A stretch of DNA of 11,121 nucleotides from Candidatus Woesearchaeota archaeon (lineage in GTDB: Archaea > Nanobdellota > Nanobdellia > Woesearchaeales > UBA525). A program made the translations under genes and the position numbers. The stretch is from the NCBI GenBank assembly GCA_013331575.1, contig DUGD01000035.1:2788-13908 (forward strand). The letters are read 5' to 3'. Positions 1 through 11,121 of this stretch are shown here, piece by piece. The notes under the pieces were generated by a model, which worked only from the letters and a program-made list of their open reading frames with translations, had not been told where the DNA came from and did not search any database. Positions within the stretch are counted from its first letter, which is position 1. The number at the start of each line of letters is the position of its first letter.

Positions 1-2460
1 TTTCTTCACCGCTGTCTTCTTCGCAGGGGCTTTCGCCGTCTTCGCCACGGGCTTCGCCGTCGTCTTCTTGTCGTTGGGCACGTAGACCAGCACGTGGTCT
101 TTCGTCAGGTCCTGGCGGCGCTCCTTTATCGTGAGCACTATCAGGAAGAGCACGAGCAGTATGGCCACCACGATGACGACCACGATGTAATGGCACCATG
201 CGTGCAACCAATCGAGGAATCCCATAGTCTTCATCGGGATGACACGCAGGACGAACACTGGTGAATCGGTGACGCCGCCTTTGCTGTCGCTTGCGGTGAT
301 GACCATGGTGTTCTCGCCCGCGAAGTTGTGGTCGGGGGTGAGCGTGAGCTCGCTACCGTCCATGTTCAGCTTGATGTCGCGCGGCTGCGTCACAGTGTAA
401 CGCAAGTAGTCCAGGTCGGGATCGTCGAAGTATTGGTCCATATCGATAGTCTTCTGCGTGTTCTGGTACCACTCTATCACGGTCGAATCGGTCGTGTCGG
501 CAACGCGCTCGTAGAGCACTGTGTCGCTTGGGGGCTGCAAGAACGCGATGAACACCAAGAAGAGCACGATGCATAGCACCAGTATCGTCTTGATGACGGT
601 CAATGCGAAGCGGCTCATGCTCGGGAGGCTGATGATGCCTAGCCAGATGAGGATGAGCAGCACTGCGAAGACCAACAACGCGATACCGAGCAGGATGATG
701 ACCCAGCCGCACAGTCCAAGGCCGCCCCATGGCAGGCCGAAGAACCAGTCAGCGAGGCGCTGGAAGAATCCTTTCTCCTCCAGACGCACGCCGACGTGCT
801 CGCGATAGTCGATGTTCAAGTCGGGATCGACCAGGTTGAACACCGGTTGCACGATGTAGCGCCCGCGCTCCTGGGCGGTCAGGTTGATGCCGTCCTTCAC
901 GATCATGTGGATCGCTCGCTGGTCGCCGGGGAAGAGCTGGATATCCTCTTCCTGCACGGTGAAGAGCGTACTGTTCGTAGTTATCTCGTACAACCCGCCT
1001 TCGGTGCCGGTATGCTTGACGATCACGGGAAGGACAGTCATGTCGTCCTTCACACGCAGCTCGTCATCGTCGATCTGCACCATGTGGCATGTGCGCAGCG
1101 TCTGGCTGTCAATGACGATAGTCGCGCTGTCATTCACGTGCTGCGCGTTCGTCGGCCAGACCGAGACCTCGGCCTCGTAGCGCGCATCGTTGCACGGCAT
1201 GTTCGCGCGCAGCGGGACGTTCATGTTCTGTCCCGGCGCGATGCGGACCGTCGTCTCATCGAGCTCGAAGAAGCTCGGGCCGTCCACTGCGAGGTTGAAG
1301 AGCTGTTCGCGATCACCATCGTTGCGGACGTTGACATAGTAGGTCTTGAGTCCGCAGCAGGTGACGAGCGGCCCTTCGATCGCGTGCTCCGGCGTGTCGC
1401 GCAATTCGACCTTCGGGTCGTAGCAGTCCGCGAGCGTCACGGTGATGTCGCGCGTCTTCTGCTTCTGGCCGTAGCGATCGATCGCTTCGATGGTTATCGT
1501 GTGTTCGCCTTCGGCTCCTTCCGGCGCCGCTATGGAGAGCTGGACGGTCTTGTCTTCGCGGCTGTCGAGTTCGACAAGCTGCTCGGAGAGCGTCGCGAAG
1601 GACGGTCCTACGACGCGCAGCGACACTTCGTCATCCACGCGTGCGTCATTGCTTACCTCGATCGGCACGGTGGTTGTGGTCTGTGTGCAGACATTCACCG
1701 ATGCGGGCAAGTCGATGCTGTACGAGTAATCGTTGGTTATCTCCATCTCGCGTTGCGCGTCCGCGCCGAATCCGTTCTTGCCTGTGAAGACGACGAAGGG
1801 GATGATCTTCGTCCCGTATTCGGTGCAGGGGAATGTGAACCCGACATCCTGGCTGTATGATTGCCCCGGCTTGAGGTACAAATCCTTCATCTCGGCATCG
1901 GCGATGCCGTTGTACGGTCCGAAATCGAGGCTGAAGCTATCGGCGAATGTACCAACGTTGGTGACGGTGACGTTGAACGTTCCCTCTTCGCAAAGGCCCA
2001 CGGTGACCTTGGCAGGAGTTACGTCCAGGAGTGCAGTCTGACACATATCGACGCGGATGGTGCGGGAGAGCGTCTGGATACGGCCGTAGCTGTTGGTGAC
2101 GGTGACGTCGTAGGGGAACGTCCCTTGCACGCCGCAGCTATCCTCGATATAGACGAGGACTTCCTTGAAGTGCTTGGGCGCGAGCTGGAAGCTCGATTCC
2201 GGCACCTTGATGCTGTTCGGGTACGCACTCTGGATGCGCACATCGAAATCGGCGATGAAGTCGCCTGTGTTCTCTATGATGATGCGATCGACTTTCGTCT
2301 CGCATGCGCAGAGTTTCAGCTGCTCGTTGTAGGGCGAGCTCGCGGCGAACTCGTTCGTGTACTTGTTCACGACGAGGACTGCCGACGCGGATTGCGCGAA
2401 GATGCTCGTAAGCACCAGTATCGTTAGCAAAAGGAAAACCGTGGTTTTGTGTTGGTTCAT
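1..2460 (-). CDS. Large secreted multi-Ig-domain membrane protein, C-terminus cut by window edge
   Basis: An open frame runs without a stop from ATG at 2460 to base 1 (820 residues seen). Residues 1-27 form a signal peptide ending in an ASA cleavage motif. Residues 28 to about 560 look like a chain of beta-rich Ig-like domains (CARDB / COG1470-like), with alternating V-x-V strands, repeated 'N-x-G' turns and regularly placed Cys pairs that suggest one disulfide per domain. Two hydrophobic helices follow (about 582-610 and 619-641) with a very short loop between them. Next comes an external cadherin-like (CADG-type) domain at about 671-742, starting DMDQYFDDPDLDYL and ending in the usual ITASDSKGG motif. 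A third helix spans 758-778. The cytoplasmic tail (779-820 and onward) is rich in Lys, Ala and Pro (KAPAKKTAVKK), like histone H1 tails. The likely role is a cell-surface structural or adhesion protein. The domain assignments are by eye, and the exact function is unknown. The start fits the signal peptide, and a GGTG lies 7 bases upstream. Confidence 0.85.
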   Translation of the reverse strand, partial: MNQHKTTVFLLLTILVLTSIFAQSASAVLVVNKYTNEFAASSPYNEQLKLCACETKVDRIIIENTGDFIADFDVRIQSAYPNSIKVPESSFQLAPKHFKEVLVYIEDSCGVQGTFPYDVTVTNSYGRIQTLSRTIRVDMCQTALLDVTPAKVTVGLCEEGTFNVTVTNVGTFADSFSLDFGPYNGIADAEMKDLYLKPGQSYSQDVGFTFPCTEYGTKIIPFVVFTGKNGFGADAQREMEITNDYSYSIDLPASVNVCTQTTTTVPIEVSNDARVDDEVSLRVVGPSFATLSEQLVELDSREDKTVQLSIAAPEGAEGEHTITIEAIDRYGQKQKTRDITVTLADCYDPKVELRDTPEHAIEGPLVTCCGLKTYYVNVRNDGDREQLFNLAVDGPSFFELDETTVRIAPGQNMNVPLRANMPCNDARYEAEVSVWPTNAQHVNDSATIVIDSQTLRTCHMVQIDDDELRVKDDMTVLPVIVKHTGTEGGLYEITTNSTLFTVQEEDIQLFPGDQRAIHMIVKDGINLTAQERGRYIVQPVFNLVDPDLNIDYREHVGVRLEEKGFFQRLADWFFGLPWGGLGLCGWVIILLGIALLVFAVLLILIWLGIISLPSMSRFALTVIKTILVLCIVLFLVFIAFLQPPSDTVLYERVADTTDSTVIEWYQNTQKTIDMDQYFDDPDLDYLRYTVTQPRDIKLNMDGSELTLTPDHNFAGENTMVITASDSKGGVTDSPVFVLRVIPMKTMGFLDWLHAWCHYIVVVIVVAILLVLFLIVLTIKERRQDLTKDHVLVYVPNDKKTTAKPVAKTAKAPAKKTAVKK

Positions 2461-2477: not shown

Positions 2478-2533
2478 GTGATGGAATGTTGTTATCGTGA
2501 TGGTTACTATAGCGATGGTTGCGATTGTGATGG
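2478..2533. repeat. Four short iterated GYGATGG repeats before the large surface-protein gene
   Basis: Copies of GTGATGG or GCGATGG begin at 2478, 2497, 2512 and 2527. The last three are exactly 15 bases apart. Two of them lie in a 12-base direct repeat, GTGATGGTTACT, at 2497-2508 and 2527-2538. The block fills the 77-base gap between the stop of the last small membrane protein and the start of the large surface protein, so on the transcribed strand it is a CCATCAC-type leader. It could be a regulator binding site, a leader element or simple slippage. No clear TATA box is visible in the gap, which suggests read-through transcription from upstream. Confidence 0.5.
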
Positions 2534-2537
2534 TTAC

Positions 2538-2861
2538 TCAGCCGTCCTGCGGATTCTGCGGCTGTCGTCTCTTGCGGACTGGCGGGATGAGCCGTTGCTT
2601 CTCGAGCGCGAAATACTGGGACTGCGACGCTAAACTGACAGCGACGATTGCGGATGCCAAAGCTTTACCATACTGCGGAGGGTTTCGAGGATAGAGGTTG
2701 AGCACCGCAGCAGAGGCGCCTACAACTGCAAACCCAATGCACGCGTACTGTCCGAACGCGAGCACGCGGTACTTTCCTGCGTGTTCGGGCAGCGGACGCC
2801 TAGGTGACGTACTCACGCTTAATGTCTTCTCCGTCCGTTGCTCGAGTGAGTCATTTTCCAT
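2538..2861 (-). CDS. Small two-helix membrane protein E (107 aa), fifth of a tandem set
   Basis: The 107-residue product is not one I recognise. It has a polar N-terminal segment (1-30), a hydrophobic helix at about 35-56, a short loop with NLYPRNPPQYG, a second helix at about 64-81, and a short strongly basic tail (PPVRKRRQPQNPQDG). The layout of two membrane helices with cytosolic ends matches the four genes upstream, but it lacks their long C-terminal helix, so it may be a shortened member. The start ATG lies 8 bases after the stop of the preceding gene (2870), which implies co-transcription. The ribosome binding site is weak (TAGGT overlapping that stop), consistent with translational coupling. 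Function is unknown. Confidence 0.65.
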   Translation of the reverse strand: MENDSLEQRTEKTLSVSTSPRRPLPEHAGKYRVLAFGQYACIGFAVVGASAAVLNLYPRNPPQYGKALASAIVAVSLASQSQYFALEKQRLIPPVRKRRQPQNPQDG

Positions 2862-2869
2862 GGCGAAAC

Positions 2870-3331
2870 CTATTGCTTGAGTGCATTGCCTTTTGCGACG
2901 TAAAAGTTATTCTCGTCGCGTTCGTTACGAAGATTGGCGAGTCTAGTGTGACAGAAGCGGACTTCTTCCGAAGCACGCTTGCACATGTCATGCTGTAGTT
3001 CATATAGGTCGTATGTGAGTTCTAAAGTCCTGGCCTTTGAAACGCCAGCAACGACGGTGCCTGCTACAATCATGCTACCGGCAATAAATGCAGGATTGCG
3101 ATTCATTGGAACGGTAAACGAGTATCCAATAACACCAACCCCAAACAATAAAGAGTAGAGGTGTGGTTTGAAAGAGTATGCTTTCTTACGTAGCGCTCTA
3201 TATGTCGCACTGCTTTCATCAGAAATTTTCTGCTGGGCAAGTAGTTGCTCTTCAGCGTTAACGATGCGTTCGTCCAGACTCTGCTCTGGTTGCCCGACGG
3301 GCCCTTTCCCTGTTCCAATCTTGTAAACCAT
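2870..3331 (-). CDS. Small two-helix membrane protein D with coiled-coil flanks (153 aa)
   Basis: An upstream start at 3397 would overlap the preceding gene by 56 bases. The ATG at 3331 sits 10 bases after that gene's stop and has GTGAG a few bases ahead, so I chose it (153 residues). Residues 18-50 are charged and helical (EERIV/AEEQLLAQQK type). The helices are at about 56-74 and 80-98, separated by PMNRNP. Residues 99-140 form a second long charged helix. The overall plan of N-helix, two-helix hairpin and C-helix is that of genes A-C, and resembles SLATT / DUF4231-type 2TM proteins in outline only. Its DNA looks richer in A+T than the surface-protein genes on either side, so it may have a different origin. 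Function is unknown. Confidence 0.7.
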   Translation of the reverse strand: MVYKIGTGKGPVGQPEQSLDERIVNAEEQLLAQQKISDESSATYRALRKKAYSFKPHLYSLLFGVGVIGYSFTVPMNRNPAFIAGSMIVAGTVVAGVSKARTLELTYDLYELQHDMCKRASEEVRFCHTRLANLRNERDENNFYVAKGNALKQ

Positions 3332-3341
3332 GATACTCACT

Positions 3342-3818
3342 TTATCCGTCGTATGTCCCGCCGATCGTGCCGGGGTATGTCGCGCTGATATCGCCATCGG
3401 TGACGATCACTGATGCAGGACCGCCAGGAGTGCCGACGGAACGCTCAAGCAGCGACGCGTTGTCTGTATCCGCGATTTTCTGTGCGAGCCTATCCGATAT
3501 CTTCGTGAGACTCGTATGATAGAGGCCCATCTTGCGGCGATACGTGGCGGCATCGGCCGATCCTGCGATAGCGAGGGCGACACCCGCTGCGCCAGTCACA
3601 GGTCCCGCCATGCTATCCGGCATGTGGAATGAAACGATGAGCATGGCGCCTCCTGCGATGGCAGTGGCGACCGATGATCTGAACTCCCTCCGTCGCGCCT
3701 TATACGAGCAATACGTCTTTTCAACCTCTTCGATGCCGTCGAAGTCGCTGAAGCGCGGGATGATACGTCCTCGCATCGTCGTGGTCATCGTCTGGTAGAG
3801 TCGATCGGTGTTGTCCAT
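3342..3818 (-). CDS. Small two-helix membrane protein C (158 aa)
   Basis: The 158-residue product is of unknown function. A polar N-terminal part (1-46) ends in a very basic stretch, YKARRREFR, just before the first helix (about 48-65). A short loop, HMPDSMAGP, leads to the second helix (about 71-90, Ala/Gly-rich). A charged helix follows (TSLTKISDRLAQKIAD, about 102-117), and then a Gly/Thr/Pro-rich tail that looks disordered. The basic box before helix 1 and the helix after helix 2 sit where they do in genes A and B, which supports distant paralogy. The Gly/Ala bias of the second helix would suit close helix packing or oligomer formation (inference). The start is fixed by a full AGGAGG six bases upstream, the strongest ribosome binding site in the cluster. 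Confidence 0.75.
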   Translation of the reverse strand: MDNTDRLYQTMTTTMRGRIIPRFSDFDGIEEVEKTYCSYKARRREFRSSVATAIAGGAMLIVSFHMPDSMAGPVTGAAGVALAIAGSADAATYRRKMGLYHTSLTKISDRLAQKIADTDNASLLERSVGTPGGPASVIVTDGDISATYPGTIGGTYDG

Positions 3819-3824
3819 AGTAAT

Positions 3825-3830
3825 CCTCCT
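3825..3830 (-). promoter_or_regulatory. Strong ribosome binding site for gene C
   Basis: On the minus strand AGGAGG lies six bases before the ATG at 3818. It sits in the 35-base gap after gene B. No TATA box is visible in that gap, so gene C is probably translated from the common transcript with its own strong initiation signal. Confidence 0.75.
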
Positions 3831-3853
3831 GGAATTAAGGTGTCAGTGTCAAT

Positions 3854-4291
3854 CTACGAGTATTTCGTCACTGTCGCATTGAGCGTCATCCCGGCAGGGA
3901 TAGTCGTCGGTATCGACGGATCAGACGCTTGGAAACCCTCGCGCTCTTTGTTTGTCAGTTCGTTCGCGATCGATTCGATCTCTGAACGGGCGCGAAGATG
4001 TAATTTGCGCGTACGTGCAAAAAGGACTCCGGAACCTGTAGCCACCAGGGCCGAACCAACGATACCGCCCAGTCTATAAGCCTGCGACAAGTTCGGGTTG
4101 TATATTGCCGCGCCAACTGCCAGCATAGAACCGAAGAACGCTGCAGCGATCCCCCTATACTGTTGACGGGCACAACTGTACTCGATGACGGCACGATCGA
4201 GCGTTATCGTCTTCACAGACGCAGATACGCTTGTATAGCGATCGAGCAGTTCTGTGGCCGCAATATATTGTTTAATAGTAGTATCAGTCAT
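3854..4291 (-). CDS. Small two-helix membrane protein B (145 aa), paralogue of A
   Basis: The 145-residue product has a polar N-terminal domain (1-45), a helix at about 47-65, the loop NPNLSQAYR, a second helix at about 74-92, then a basic turn (RTRKLHLR) and the helix ARSEIESIANELTNK (about 101-115), followed by a Pro/Thr-rich tail. The last helix matches ARIEIESIAEELSRK of gene A at almost the same residue number. The DNA encoding it shares 17 identical bases with gene A (3966-3982 versus 4415-4431), so the two are recent or strongly constrained paralogues. Its ATG overlaps the stop of gene A as ATGA, with GAGGTGA four bases ahead, so translation is coupled. The function is unknown to me. 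Confidence 0.78.
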   Translation of the reverse strand: MTDTTIKQYIAATELLDRYTSVSASVKTITLDRAVIEYSCARQQYRGIAAAFFGSMLAVGAAIYNPNLSQAYRLGGIVGSALVATGSGVLFARTRKLHLRARSEIESIANELTNKEREGFQASDPSIPTTIPAGMTLNATVTKYS

Positions 4292-4737
4292 GATTTCACC
4301 TCGGGATTTCTCGTGTATGTGACGGCAGGATTGGATGTGTGCGCGACGGCCGGATTGCCATCGTACACAACGGGCGCATTCCCTGCCGAAGCGGCCTTGC
4401 GCGAGAGTTCCTCGGCGATCGATTCGATCTCGATGCGTGCCTCTTTCCTTCGACGGCGAGGTCCTTGCGCTGCGGCAACGTTTATCGCCACCGCTGCGAC
4501 GCCCGCGAAAGCGACGGGATACTTGATGAATGGTTGCCGGAAACTGACAAGTGACACTCCTACTACGTAGGCGCCTAACAGACTGCCTAACAGAGCACGA
4601 CGGCAGTAGAGCCCGTTCAAGCCGTATCGTCTATACGCGTCGTTGAGCACGACCGAAGTGTCATGCGCATCATGGTCTGTGCTGTAAGCGAGTTTTTCCA
4701 TCGCCGCCGCGTAAGTCTTATCGGTCCTTTCAAGCAT
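4288..4737 (-). CDS. Small two-helix membrane protein A (149 aa), first of the tandem set
   Basis: The longest frame starts at a GTG (4746), but an AGGTGA (4743-4748) lies over that GTG and five bases before the ATG at 4737, so I place the start at 4737. The product has an N-terminal polar helix (1-40), basic residues YCRR before helix 1 (about 47-66), a loop QPFIKYP, helix 2 (about 73-92), a basic run QGPRRRRKEAR that predicts a cytosolic face, the ARIEIESIAEELSRK helix shared with gene B, and a tail made of three octapeptides of the form xxxxNP[A/E]V (residues 124-147). No enzyme motif is visible. The gene opens the likely A-E operon and is preceded by a TATA box at 4819-4826. Function is unknown. 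Confidence 0.78.
   Translation of the reverse strand: MLERTDKTYAAAMEKLAYSTDHDAHDTSVVLNDAYRRYGLNGLYCRRALLGSLLGAYVVGVSLVSFRQPFIKYPVAFAGVAAVAINVAAAQGPRRRRKEARIEIESIAEELSRKAASAGNAPVVYDGNPAVAHTSNPAVTYTRNPEVKS
4297..4368 (-). repeat. Three-copy 24-base coding repeat in the tail of gene A
   Basis: The 72 bases encode three octapeptides ending NPAV, NPAV and NPEV (Asn at residues 128, 136 and 144). At the DNA level two of the units share GACGGMGGATTG with a 24-base period (4321 and 4345). The other residues of each octapeptide vary. The repeat makes a short, probably unstructured cytosolic tail and is not present in genes B-E. Confidence 0.7.
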
Positions 4738-4742
4738 GAGTG

Positions 4743-4748
4743 TCACCT
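4743..4748 (-). promoter_or_regulatory. Ribosome binding site that decides the start of gene A
   Basis: AGGTGA, matching the archaeal anti-Shine-Dalgarno sequence, lies five bases before the ATG at 4737. The in-frame GTG at 4746 is part of this site and so is unlikely to be the start. Gene B has the same arrangement (GAGGTGA at 4296-4302). Confidence 0.65.
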
Positions 4749-4789
4749 ATGGTTGTGGCGTATCGTGTCGCATACATGGTATCGTATGA

Positions 4790-4815
4790 TGAATCCTGAA
4801 CTGTGAATCCTGAAC
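4790..4815. repeat. Twelve-base direct repeat at the expected transcription start of the A-E operon
   Basis: TGAATCCTGAAC occurs at 4790-4801 and 4804-4815, a 14-base period. On the minus strand the pair lies just downstream of the putative TATA box at 4819-4826, where RNA polymerase would start. That position is typical for an archaeal repressor operator, but no regulator is known here. Confidence 0.45.
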
Positions 4816-4818
4816 CGG

Positions 4819-4826
4819 TATATTTT
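4819..4826 (-). promoter_or_regulatory. Putative TATA box for the small-membrane-protein operon
   Basis: Minus-strand AAAATATA, preceded by the purine-rich GAAA of a possible BRE. Transcription would begin about 25 bases on (near 4795), leaving a leader of roughly 55-60 bases before the ATG at 4737. It is the only convincing TATA-like element between 4888 and 2461, which supports one transcript for all five small genes. Confidence 0.45.
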
Positions 4827-4834
4827 CAGCGCCG

Positions 4835-4896
4835 CATAGTCATTCACAACAGCACATAGTCCCACATAGTCTCAGTAATACATACTCTCAGTAATA
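4835..4896. repeat. Short repeats downstream of the TSP3 surface-protein gene
   Basis: CATAGT appears at 4835, 4855 and 4865, and CTCAGTAATA at 4871-4880 and 4887-4896 (the second copy includes the stop codon of the upstream surface protein). The stretch is AT-rich and forms the 3' flank of that gene as well as the upstream side of the next promoter. No hairpin terminator with a T-run is evident. Confidence 0.4.
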
Positions 4897-6183
4897 TGTC
4901 TCCATATTCGGTTGCGCGCGTTCGATAGCGACGGTCTTCGCGCCAATCTTCCGCTTCGGAGATTGCGCCGGAATAGCCTCGATGCTGCCGATGGATTTCA
5001 CGTTCTTGCCGGTATCGACAACGGTGGATGAGGCGACGTTCGCAGTCCGGTCGTGGTGATCGTCGTAATACGGCTCGACCTTGTGGTCGCCCGCGTCATC
5101 GCCGCCGGCGTTTGCGCCATTGCGACCGTTACCGTTCTTTCTCGCCGATCGCACCGCGATGATGATAGCGATGACGATGAGGGCGAGGAGGAGCACGATG
5201 AGGATGAACTGGAACAGTATCGCGAACACGGGGAATCCAGCGGCGAATTGCGTTCCCCGGACGTAGACCTTGATCGGGATGACGGTCTTCTGCGTGCCCG
5301 ACGTCACGATAAGCTGCGCGGTATGCGTTCCGGGGCGTGTCCAGCTCTCAGTCTGGATGTAGAGGTATCTGGCATCATCATGTCCCGCTGCGATGATCAC
5401 GCGAGGATTCGAATCGATACGCCAGCTGCCCATGCTCTCGGCGCCTTCCACGCTAAGATCGTATGTCGTCTGCTCGTCTCCGAGGTTGACGATGGTGATG
5501 GGCAGAAGCGCGCTCTGTCCGCGATCGATATCGGTCTCGCCGAAGACTTTGATGATAGTGGTGTCGAGTGGTCCTGAAGCGGTACCGCAGAGACTGGGAT
5601 TGCTCTTCTCGACCGTTATCGACTGCCGCTGTATCTCCGTCGCGACATTGCCTGTGCGCGGGTCGTTGAACGCCGCGCTCACGGTGATAGGGTATTCCTG
5701 CGCCTTCGCGCATTTGGGGATGGAGACCCAGAAGTCCAGGACCGCCATCTCGCCGACGGGGATGAATGGCACGCGCTCTATCGCATCCACACCCAAGTCC
5801 TTGTTGCGTAGCGTGATGGCGACATCTCCTATCGCCGCATCACGGTTGTTGAGCACACGCACGGTGATGTGCGCCATCTCTCCTTGACGGATGTGGCTGT
5901 CGGGGCTGACGATTATCTCTTCGATGAGCGTGTCGCATGCGTCACCGACACCGTTGCGGTTCGTGTCCCACTGGTCGGGGTTGTTGACTGCAGCGCAGTT
6001 GTCGAGGCTATCGATGACGCCGTCGCAATCGCGGTCGGGGATGAGGCCTGCTGGCGTCGCTACTGCACAGCCCGCTGCGAATACAGCGGGTGAAGATACG
6101 CTGACTACTGAGAGCGCGAGAAGCGCGACGATGAGCATGACGATGAAAGGTGTAGCAATGGATGTGACGACGGATCGTGCCAT
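4888..6183 (-). CDS. Secreted membrane-anchored protein with TSP3 calcium repeat and two Ig-like domains
   Basis: The 431-residue product starts with a signal peptide (1 to about 37, long hydrophobic core VMLIVALLALSVVSV). Residues 50-84 are a thrombospondin type-3 repeat with both calcium loops intact (D50-x-D52-x-D54-G-x-x-D58 and D73-x-N75-x-N77-G-x-x-D81) and the usual NxxDQ spacer. Cys 39, 53, 63 and 83 probably pair. Two beta-rich CARDB/NEW3-like domains follow (about 86-194 and 205-310). One membrane helix (about 318-345) is followed by RSARK and an 85-residue polar cytosolic tail. The likely role is a calcium-stabilised surface protein; ligand or partner unknown. AAGC at 36-39 resembles a lipobox weakly, but -3 is Ala and the Cys has disulfide partners, so I do not call a lipoprotein. 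It lies upstream of the small-membrane-protein genes in the same direction. Confidence 0.88.
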   Translation of the reverse strand: MARSVVTSIATPFIVMLIVALLALSVVSVSSPAVFAAGCAVATPAGLIPDRDCDGVIDSLDNCAAVNNPDQWDTNRNGVGDACDTLIEEIIVSPDSHIRQGEMAHITVRVLNNRDAAIGDVAITLRNKDLGVDAIERVPFIPVGEMAVLDFWVSIPKCAKAQEYPITVSAAFNDPRTGNVATEIQRQSITVEKSNPSLCGTASGPLDTTIIKVFGETDIDRGQSALLPITIVNLGDEQTTYDLSVEGAESMGSWRIDSNPRVIIAAGHDDARYLYIQTESWTRPGTHTAQLIVTSGTQKTVIPIKVYVRGTQFAAGFPVFAILFQFILIVLLLALIVIAIIIAVRSARKNGNGRNGANAGGDDAGDHKVEPYYDDHHDRTANVASSTVVDTGKNVKSIGSIEAIPAQSPKRKIGAKTVAIERAQPNMETYY

Positions 6184-8538: not shown

Positions 8539-11121
8539 TCACACCACGCTGATAGCAGGTTTCCCGGGCAGGCCGTTTTTCGCCCGCGAGTCGGACGATG
8601 ATGTCGCATCCACCGTGAGGATGACATCGCAACCGAACTCATCCTTGAGGCGGGCGATAACCTCGTGGAGGAGCGGCAGCTCATCGTCACGGGACATGTC
8701 GACCACCGGCAGGAGCTTCATGTTCTTGTAGACCGCGAACGTGAGCTGCGTGATGGCGGCAGGATCGGCAGACGCGACCTCCTTGACCAAGCGATCCGCT
8801 ATCTCCTTCGGGTTCTTGACGGTCGCGAAGAGACGCTTGAACGCCGGCACGAAATCGTACTTCCAAGATTCCGCCATGAAGAGCTCGATGCGATTCGGAG
8901 AATCGATCTTCTTCGCGGAGAGCGTCCGGCGCACGCCGCTGATAGTCTCCTCGACGAACTCCGCGGCCGCTTCCGCACGGGCATCCATACGCGATGCATC
9001 CGCGGCCGGCCACGCATCGAGCGAGAGGAACGTCTCGTTGCCCAGACGCGCCCACATCTCCTCAGCGATATGCGGAGTGAACGGCAAGAGCAAACGCGCG
9101 AGCGTGTCGAGGCAGGAACGGTATTGTCCCGGGGAAACGTCGTCCTGATACTTGATGATCGTGTTCGCGAACTCCATGACTGACATCACCGCTTTGTTGA
9201 GCCGGAACGTATCGAGATGCGCGGTAGTGTCGCGGATGCAGACGTTACGCTTGCTCTCGAGGAGCGCGTCACGGGAATCGCTTTTCGGCTGGCGCGTCTC
9301 GAGCGCCTCGACGAGACCATAGACCTTGTTGAGGAAGCGGTACGCGCACTGTATGCCTTCGTCGCTCCATTCGAGCTCGGACTCGGGCGAGCTCACGAAC
9401 ATGAGGAAGAGGCGCGCGGTATCGATGCCGTAGTTCTGCGCTATCTCGTCTTGCGCCACAACGTTGCCGTAGCTCTTCGACATCTTGTTGCCGTCCTTCG
9501 TGACCATGCCTTGGTTGAAGAGATGTGTGAACGGCTCCTTCACCTTGACGAGGCCCATGTCGTGGAGCACGCGCGTGAAGAACCGCGCGTACAGGAGGTG
9601 CATGACCGCGTGCTCGGCGCCGCCGATATACTGGTCGACGGGCAGCGCGCGGTTAACGATATCGGAGTCGAACGGTTCGCCCATCGTGTTAGGCGAAGGA
9701 TAGCGCAGGAAATACCATGAGCTGTCCATGAACGTGTCCATGGTGTCCGTCTCCCTGCGCGCAGGGGCTTTGCATTTCGGGCACTCCGTATTGACGAATG
9801 CTTCCGACGTCTTGAGCGGATTGCCTTCGCCCGTGAACTGGACGTCCTCAGGCAGCAGCACGGGAAGGTCGGCCTCGGGGACGGGCACGACGCCGCACGC
9901 GTCGCAGTAGACCATCGGGATGGGCGTGCCCCAGTATCGCTGGCGGCTGATGAGCCAATCGCGGATCTTGTAGTTGTACGTGCGCTTGCCGAGACCCTCT
10001 TTCTCCAGCCATTCAGCCATCAAGGGAAGCGCGTCGCGGTTGCTAATGCCGCTGAACGTTCCGGAACCAAAGAGGATGCCGTCGTCGGTGAGCGCATCGT
10101 GGTGATTCTTCGTGTCCGTCGGCTCGCCGGTCGGACTGATCACGAACTTGAGCGGAATATCGTATTTTCTCGCGAAGCGGAAATCGCGTTTGTCGTGCGC
10201 ATCGCACATGACGATGCCGCTGCCGTACATGACCGCGAAGTTCGCTATATAGATCGGGATGCGTTCGTTATTGACGGGGTTGATCGCGTGGCGCCCGGTG
10301 AAGAATCCCTCCTTCTCCTTCTCTTCATTCGTCCGGTCGATGATGGATTGCCGCTTCATGCGCGCGCAGAATTCTTTCGCGCCCTGCGCGTGTTCCGATC
10401 CCTTGACGAGCGTCTCGATAAGCGGGTGCTCGGGGGCTATCGCGAGGAATGTGACGCTGAAGATCGTATCGCAGCGCGTGGTGAACGCGGGCAGCACCAT
10501 GCCAGGTTTGCCGTGCTCTTCGAGCTTGAAATGGATGTCAACGCCTGTGCTCTTGCCGATCCAGTTTTCCTGCATGATGCGAATCTTCTCGGGCCAACCC
10601 TGCAGTTCGCTCAACCCCTCGAGGAGCACGTCGGCATACTCGGTGATTTTGAGGAACCATTGCTCGAGATTCTTCGGCTCGACGACCGAGTCGCAACGCC
10701 AGCACTTGCCGTCCTTGACCTGCTCGTTCGCGAGGACCGTCGCGCATTTCGGGCACCAGTTGATAGGCGCCTCCTTGCGGTATGCGAGACCTCGCTTGTA
10801 GAACTGGATGAAGAACCATTGGTTCCACTTGTAGTACTCCGGACGGCATGTGACGACCATGCGCTCCCAGTCGTAGCTGCTGCCGAGCTCGCGTTGCTGT
10901 TTGCTGATGCTCGCTATGGCGTTATCGGTGTATGTCTTCGGGTGCGTCTTGTTCTTGATAGCGGCGTTCTCAGCAGGAAGACCGAACGCGTCGTAGCCCA
11001 TCGGGTAGAGGACGTCGAATCCTTGCATGCGCTTGTAGCGCGCGATGACATCGCCCATCGTGTAGTTGCGGCTGTGGCCCATGTGCAGACCATAGGCGCT
11101 CGGGTACGGGAACATCTCGAG
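8539..11121 (-). CDS. leuS: Leucyl-tRNA synthetase, bacterial type, N-terminus beyond the window
   Basis: Class I enzyme charging tRNA-Leu with leucine in the cytosol. The frame is open to the right edge (860 residues seen). Residues LE precede MFPYPSAYGLHMGH, and bacterial LeuRS has some 35-45 residues before this point. HMGH (11074-11085) and KMSKS (9472-9486) form the ATP site. Zinc motifs CPKC...CWRC and YCDAC...CPKC are intact. The CP1 editing domain lies between them with TTRCDT (10465-10482) and YGSGIVMCDAHDKRD (10183-10227). The family usually has TTRPDT and YGTGAVMxVPAHDxRD, so Cys replaces Pro and the second motif is shorter, though the editing Asp of AHDxRD is kept. The anticodon-binding domain and the small C-terminal domain ending LPGKPAI are complete. 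Motif layout is bacterial rather than archaeal/eukaryotic. Promoter lies outside the window. Confidence 0.96.
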   Translation of the reverse strand, partial: LEMFPYPSAYGLHMGHSRNYTMGDVIARYKRMQGFDVLYPMGYDAFGLPAENAAIKNKTHPKTYTDNAIASISKQQRELGSSYDWERMVVTCRPEYYKWNQWFFIQFYKRGLAYRKEAPINWCPKCATVLANEQVKDGKCWRCDSVVEPKNLEQWFLKITEYADVLLEGLSELQGWPEKIRIMQENWIGKSTGVDIHFKLEEHGKPGMVLPAFTTRCDTIFSVTFLAIAPEHPLIETLVKGSEHAQGAKEFCARMKRQSIIDRTNEEKEKEGFFTGRHAINPVNNERIPIYIANFAVMYGSGIVMCDAHDKRDFRFARKYDIPLKFVISPTGEPTDTKNHHDALTDDGILFGSGTFSGISNRDALPLMAEWLEKEGLGKRTYNYKIRDWLISRQRYWGTPIPMVYCDACGVVPVPEADLPVLLPEDVQFTGEGNPLKTSEAFVNTECPKCKAPARRETDTMDTFMDSSWYFLRYPSPNTMGEPFDSDIVNRALPVDQYIGGAEHAVMHLLYARFFTRVLHDMGLVKVKEPFTHLFNQGMVTKDGNKMSKSYGNVVAQDEIAQNYGIDTARLFLMFVSSPESELEWSDEGIQCAYRFLNKVYGLVEALETRQPKSDSRDALLESKRNVCIRDTTAHLDTFRLNKAVMSVMEFANTIIKYQDDVSPGQYRSCLDTLARLLLPFTPHIAEEMWARLGNETFLSLDAWPAADASRMDARAEAAAEFVEETISGVRRTLSAKKIDSPNRIELFMAESWKYDFVPAFKRLFATVKNPKEIADRLVKEVASADPAAITQLTFAVYKNMKLLPVVDMSRDDELPLLHEVIARLKDEFGCDVILTVDATSSSDSRAKNGLPGKPAISVV

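Follow-up and report, generated by a model that had tools for sequence, protein, structure and literature searches.

Tandem genes for small two-helix membrane proteins between two predicted surface-protein genes of a Woesearchaeota archaeon

A window of 11,121 nucleotides from a Candidatus Woesearchaeota archaeon (G000:C15:2788-13908; draft genome of 1.63 Mb, 75% complete) contains a minus-strand run, at positions 2538-4737, of five co-directional genes, here termed A to E, whose products comprise 149, 145, 158, 153 and 107 residues, respectively. The array lies between the genes for two predicted surface proteins, for which we use the working labels NEW3 and CARDB. Our preferred, though tentative, explanation is that it encodes an accessory membrane subunit serving the surface system of NEW3 and CARDB, which has been amplified and diversified in place.

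The sequence-only reading of this stretch had described five tightly packed same-strand genes of 107-158 residues, each encoding a two-helix membrane hairpin, and this description is confirmed throughout: the lengths, the 4-base overlap and the ensuing gaps of 35, 10 and 8 are all as claimed. On the minus strand, A occupies 4288..4737, B 3854..4291, C 3342..3818, D 2870..3331 and E 2538..2861. Hydropathy reveals a hydrophobic hairpin in every product, namely, two segments separated by a loop of 3-10 residues, and the codon score for each gene is best of six in its own frame, albeit with a narrow margin for D. An alternative GTG start for A exists at 4746; the ATG at 4737 was chosen because it is preceded by GGTGA and because the database record, P0003, has 149 residues. 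The record for D, P0005, has 153 residues.

Three or four of the five genes are likely to be copies. The similarity among A, B and C exceeds that of shuffled sequences in which the hydropathy plan is preserved; the homology of A and B is clear and that of A and C well supported. D shows little, weak similarity to the other copies and is a probable member of an A-D family. E showed no similarity to A-D beyond the shared hydropathy plan; it is placed with the array by position and plan only, and its kinship to the other copies is unsupported. Serial duplication with rapid divergence, as originally proposed, therefore stands for A, B and C, is weakly indicated for D and is not shown for E.

The array has conserved neighbours. 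Upstream lies NEW3 (4888..6183, minus strand; 431 residues), a predicted surface protein with TSP3/NEW3-like stretches and a C-terminal membrane helix; downstream lies CARDB (1..2460, minus strand), a predicted surface protein with Ig-like stretches, the N-terminal 820 of its 964 residues being inside the window. Both would lie at the cell surface. NEW3 was matched in nine of the 10 relatives searched, and CARDB adjoins it on the same strand in seven (G001, G002, G003, G004, G006, G007 and G009); no NEW3 match was found in G008, no CARDB match was found within the 12 kb read in G005, and the locus of G010, with weak NEW3 matches only, was left out of the reading. In G002, which belongs to the same genus, the slot between the pair holds a single two-helix gene of 103 residues (L035:8065-8376) that runs 4 bases into the start of CARDB and has the same orientation as the array, although it is less hydrophobic at its peaks (1.23 and 1.40 over 19 residues). 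An A-D profile built without this G002 protein ranked it top among 1,886 open reading frames (ORFs) from the relatives' loci, with a value of 1.4e-5 against 0.0036 for the second-best distinct ORF; as these loci overlap, the G002 protein is counted five times in the set. Conversely, searching with only the G002 protein as query did not recover the array. In G001, also of the same genus, the slot contains an ORF of ~107 codons that is non-membrane, with no clear hairpin; in G003, likewise a member of this genus, and in G004, the NEW3 and CARDB genes almost touch, and in G006, G007 and G009, the aligned ends of the two proteins appear to leave no obvious space for a gene. The C-terminus of NEW3, predicted to be cytoplasmic, is conserved, reading ETYY in G000-G003 and ESYY in G004 (window 4888-4902; L035:8384, L036:3156, L037:5880 and L040:8432). 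The CARDB homologues of G002 and G003 (L035:5228-8068 and L037:2900-5875) finish in a conserved cysteine-bearing stretch, GNTVHTPYC...CKxCRPF.

One relative is P0002, a database protein of 150 residues (on a 2-kb contig) in which the body of one copy is joined to the tail of another, thereby bridging A and B. Its body matches A at 66 of 90 positions and B at 29 of 87, and its tail matches A at five of 27 positions and B at 22 of 30; the Fisher p values for these contrasts (1e-7 and 5e-5) are rough, as positions are non-independent and the region boundaries were drawn manually. The change from A-type to B-type is located at a helix with the motif IESIA, which in A and B is encoded by a 26-nt direct repeat (4406..4431 and 3957..3982, respectively) whose copies are 88% identical and 449 bp apart. 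A P0002-like gene would be obtainable by deletion between these repeats; equally, an ancestral gene of the P0002 form would provide an alternative origin for the mixture. C-type tails are conserved between strains. Comparison of C with P0006 (on a 1-kb contig) gives identities of 34/46 in the N-terminus, 32/44 in the hairpin, 21/27 in the C-helix and 35/41 in the tail; for the hairpin, C-helix and tail, respectively, the values are 25/32, 22/27 and 33/41 for C with P0007, and 22/32, 22/27 and 38/42 for P0006 with P0007. Thus, the C-type tails, at 80-90% identity, are conserved at least as much as the hairpins. P0007 itself (101 residues, on a 19-kb contig) is a C-like record that starts within the first membrane helix, and may reflect either truncation of the gene or a misplaced start.

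Structure models were produced for A and D. The model of A has a mean predicted local distance difference test (pLDDT) score of 71.7, with blocks of 80-87 across residues 11-110, and comprises helices at 7-20, 27-68 and 72-120, followed by a tail predicted to be disordered; that of D (pLDDT 53.5; helices 19-52, 55-71 and 80-150) has a similar plan at low confidence. The two membrane helices are predicted to extend into cytoplasmic helices. Three to six basic residues lie within 20 residues on either side of the hairpin, with zero to two in the loop, and both ends of A-E are therefore predicted to be cytoplasmic, a weak prediction because the loops are short.

Taken as a mechanism, one small two-helix gene between NEW3 and CARDB would have been amplified locally, with the products together building a mixed assembly in the membrane below the surface proteins and contacting both NEW3 and CARDB. 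The tails would act as binding peptides in the cytoplasm and would probably be exchangeable between copies, through recombination at the shared IESIA helix. The sequence-only reading had offered hetero-oligomer subunits and an arms-race role as alternatives; we consider the former the better of the two, because the array is enclosed by a conserved pair of genes for predicted surface proteins and because another genome of this genus carries just one two-helix gene at that place. Several points weigh against this explanation: most relatives with the NEW3-CARDB pair have no two-helix subunit, the membership of D and E is unproven, and the G+C content at third codon positions (GC3) of the array, which is below that of its flanks, may reflect a recent acquisition. 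A bolder version of the accessory-subunit explanation, which we regard as unlikely as it stands, makes the slot a diversification cassette: the hairpins would be interchangeable carriers for conserved cytoplasmic tail peptides, multiplying by tandem copying and swapping tails by recombination at the IESIA helix, with which the archaeon could retune the coupling of its surface proteins inside the cell.

The family is narrow in distribution. Among the 352 genomes of the order, a profile of A-D, P0002, P0006 and the G002 protein matched two, G000 and G002, each of which had contributed sequences to it, and E as query matched its own genome only (1/352). Searches of 5.8 billion proteins, which depend on shared 5-residue words, gave close variants in only three records: B found itself and P0002, the A-D profile added P0006 and P0007, and E found only itself. 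Such a distribution, together with the orphan sequences, the low GC3 and short tandem repeats on both edges of the array, is what might be expected if the genes were cargo of a virus or mobile element, inserted between NEW3 and CARDB and serving the element or excluding its competitors, without connection to the surface proteins. We consider this unlikely. Six scans of viral contigs gave no relative, nothing in PHROG rose above chance level and neither an integrase nor a transposase was noted in the window; moreover, the related single gene of G002 sits in the same slot in the same orientation, and the slot genes of both G001 and G002 are also lower in GC3 than their flanks, suggesting that lower GC3 goes with the slot itself. 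The edge repeats, which may have been left behind by duplication or insertion, comprise three copies of a 21-nt repeat with 15-nt spacing (period) between E and CARDB (2488..2538), and a 16-nt unit present twice (94%) at the NEW3 end, upstream of A (4864..4895). Also upstream of A, on the minus strand (window about 4785-4830), is an AT-rich GAAAATATACC followed by GTTCAGGATTCA twice; the former resembles an archaeal TATA box, and the array may be transcribed from a promoter of its own.

Somewhat less probable again is an arms race, with the copies acting as receptors or decoys whose diversification is driven by viruses or partner cells. Neighbouring copies have indeed diverged strongly, and slot content differs among genomes of the same genus. 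However, the strain-to-strain conservation of the C-type tails indicates constraint at least there, the loop expected to face outward has just 3-10 residues, and no defence family scored above chance level. That the five are unrelated orphans sharing only a hydropathy plan is improbable: E, without detectable similarity to the others, and D, with little, would fit, but A, B and C beat the plan-keeping shuffles, P0002 links A to B and the A-D profile matches the G002 slot gene. Least probable are pore-forming effectors of a conflict system of the SLATT/DUF4231 type. The two-helix hairpin with helical extensions would fit, but the resemblance in outline that had been suggested finds no support, since the Pfam matches listed for A-E, P0002, P0006 and the G002 protein at E up to 10 include no such model (HMMER filters discard most matches above about 0.1, so that a very distant relation is possible) and the annotated neighbours encode surface-like proteins, AMMECR1, EamA and leucyl-tRNA synthetase (LeuRS). 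Searches of 19 genomes with DUF4231 and SLATT_5 gave no hit, but neither did the controls, and these searches are not counted.

SLATT is described as a two-transmembrane (2TM) domain (PMC7159879), and A-E are likewise small proteins with a two-helix membrane hairpin, as judged by hydropathy and the model of A; unlike SLATT/DUF4231 proteins, they have no Pfam match, and none matched a curated family above its cut-off. No fold match was significant. The top Foldseek rows for A were ExbB/TolQ, in which membrane helices similarly continue into the cytoplasm, but the TM-scores were about 0.2-0.4 and the best E was 0.16; nor did ExbB/TolQ appear in the PDB sequence search, which gave five matches at E up to 10. 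Arrays of paralogous small membrane proteins in tandem are of a known kind, and A-E conform to it in being head-to-tail, on the same strand and strongly diverged; they depart from it in that the family, within the order searched, is confined to a single operon slot in a single genus, and in the body/tail mixture of P0002. It is the NEW3-CARDB slot and this mixture that are new.

By Pfam, the annotated neighbourhood (NEW3, CARDB, AMMECR1, EamA and LeuRS) holds no nucleotide-signal enzyme or other conflict gene, and five further ORFs downstream of CARDB have no Pfam match. The LeuRS near NEW3 (window 8539-11115) is bacterial-type (editing domain PF13603, E 4e-55), and G004-G007 have a LeuRS of this type at 51-52% identity. 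In G001-G003, a longer synthetase lies directly upstream of NEW3 (L035:10108-12948, L036:4371-7220 and L037:7755-10682); it is only 26-28% similar to the G000 enzyme and is probably an archaeal-type LeuRS. The synthetase thus varies within the genus.

DPANN archaea probably rely on contacts with other cells, and many of their surface proteins have no known partner. With one gene in the slot of one species and five in that of a second, the family provides a natural series in which to study the gain of subunits by an archaeal surface system, and P0002 makes body and tail separable, testable modules.
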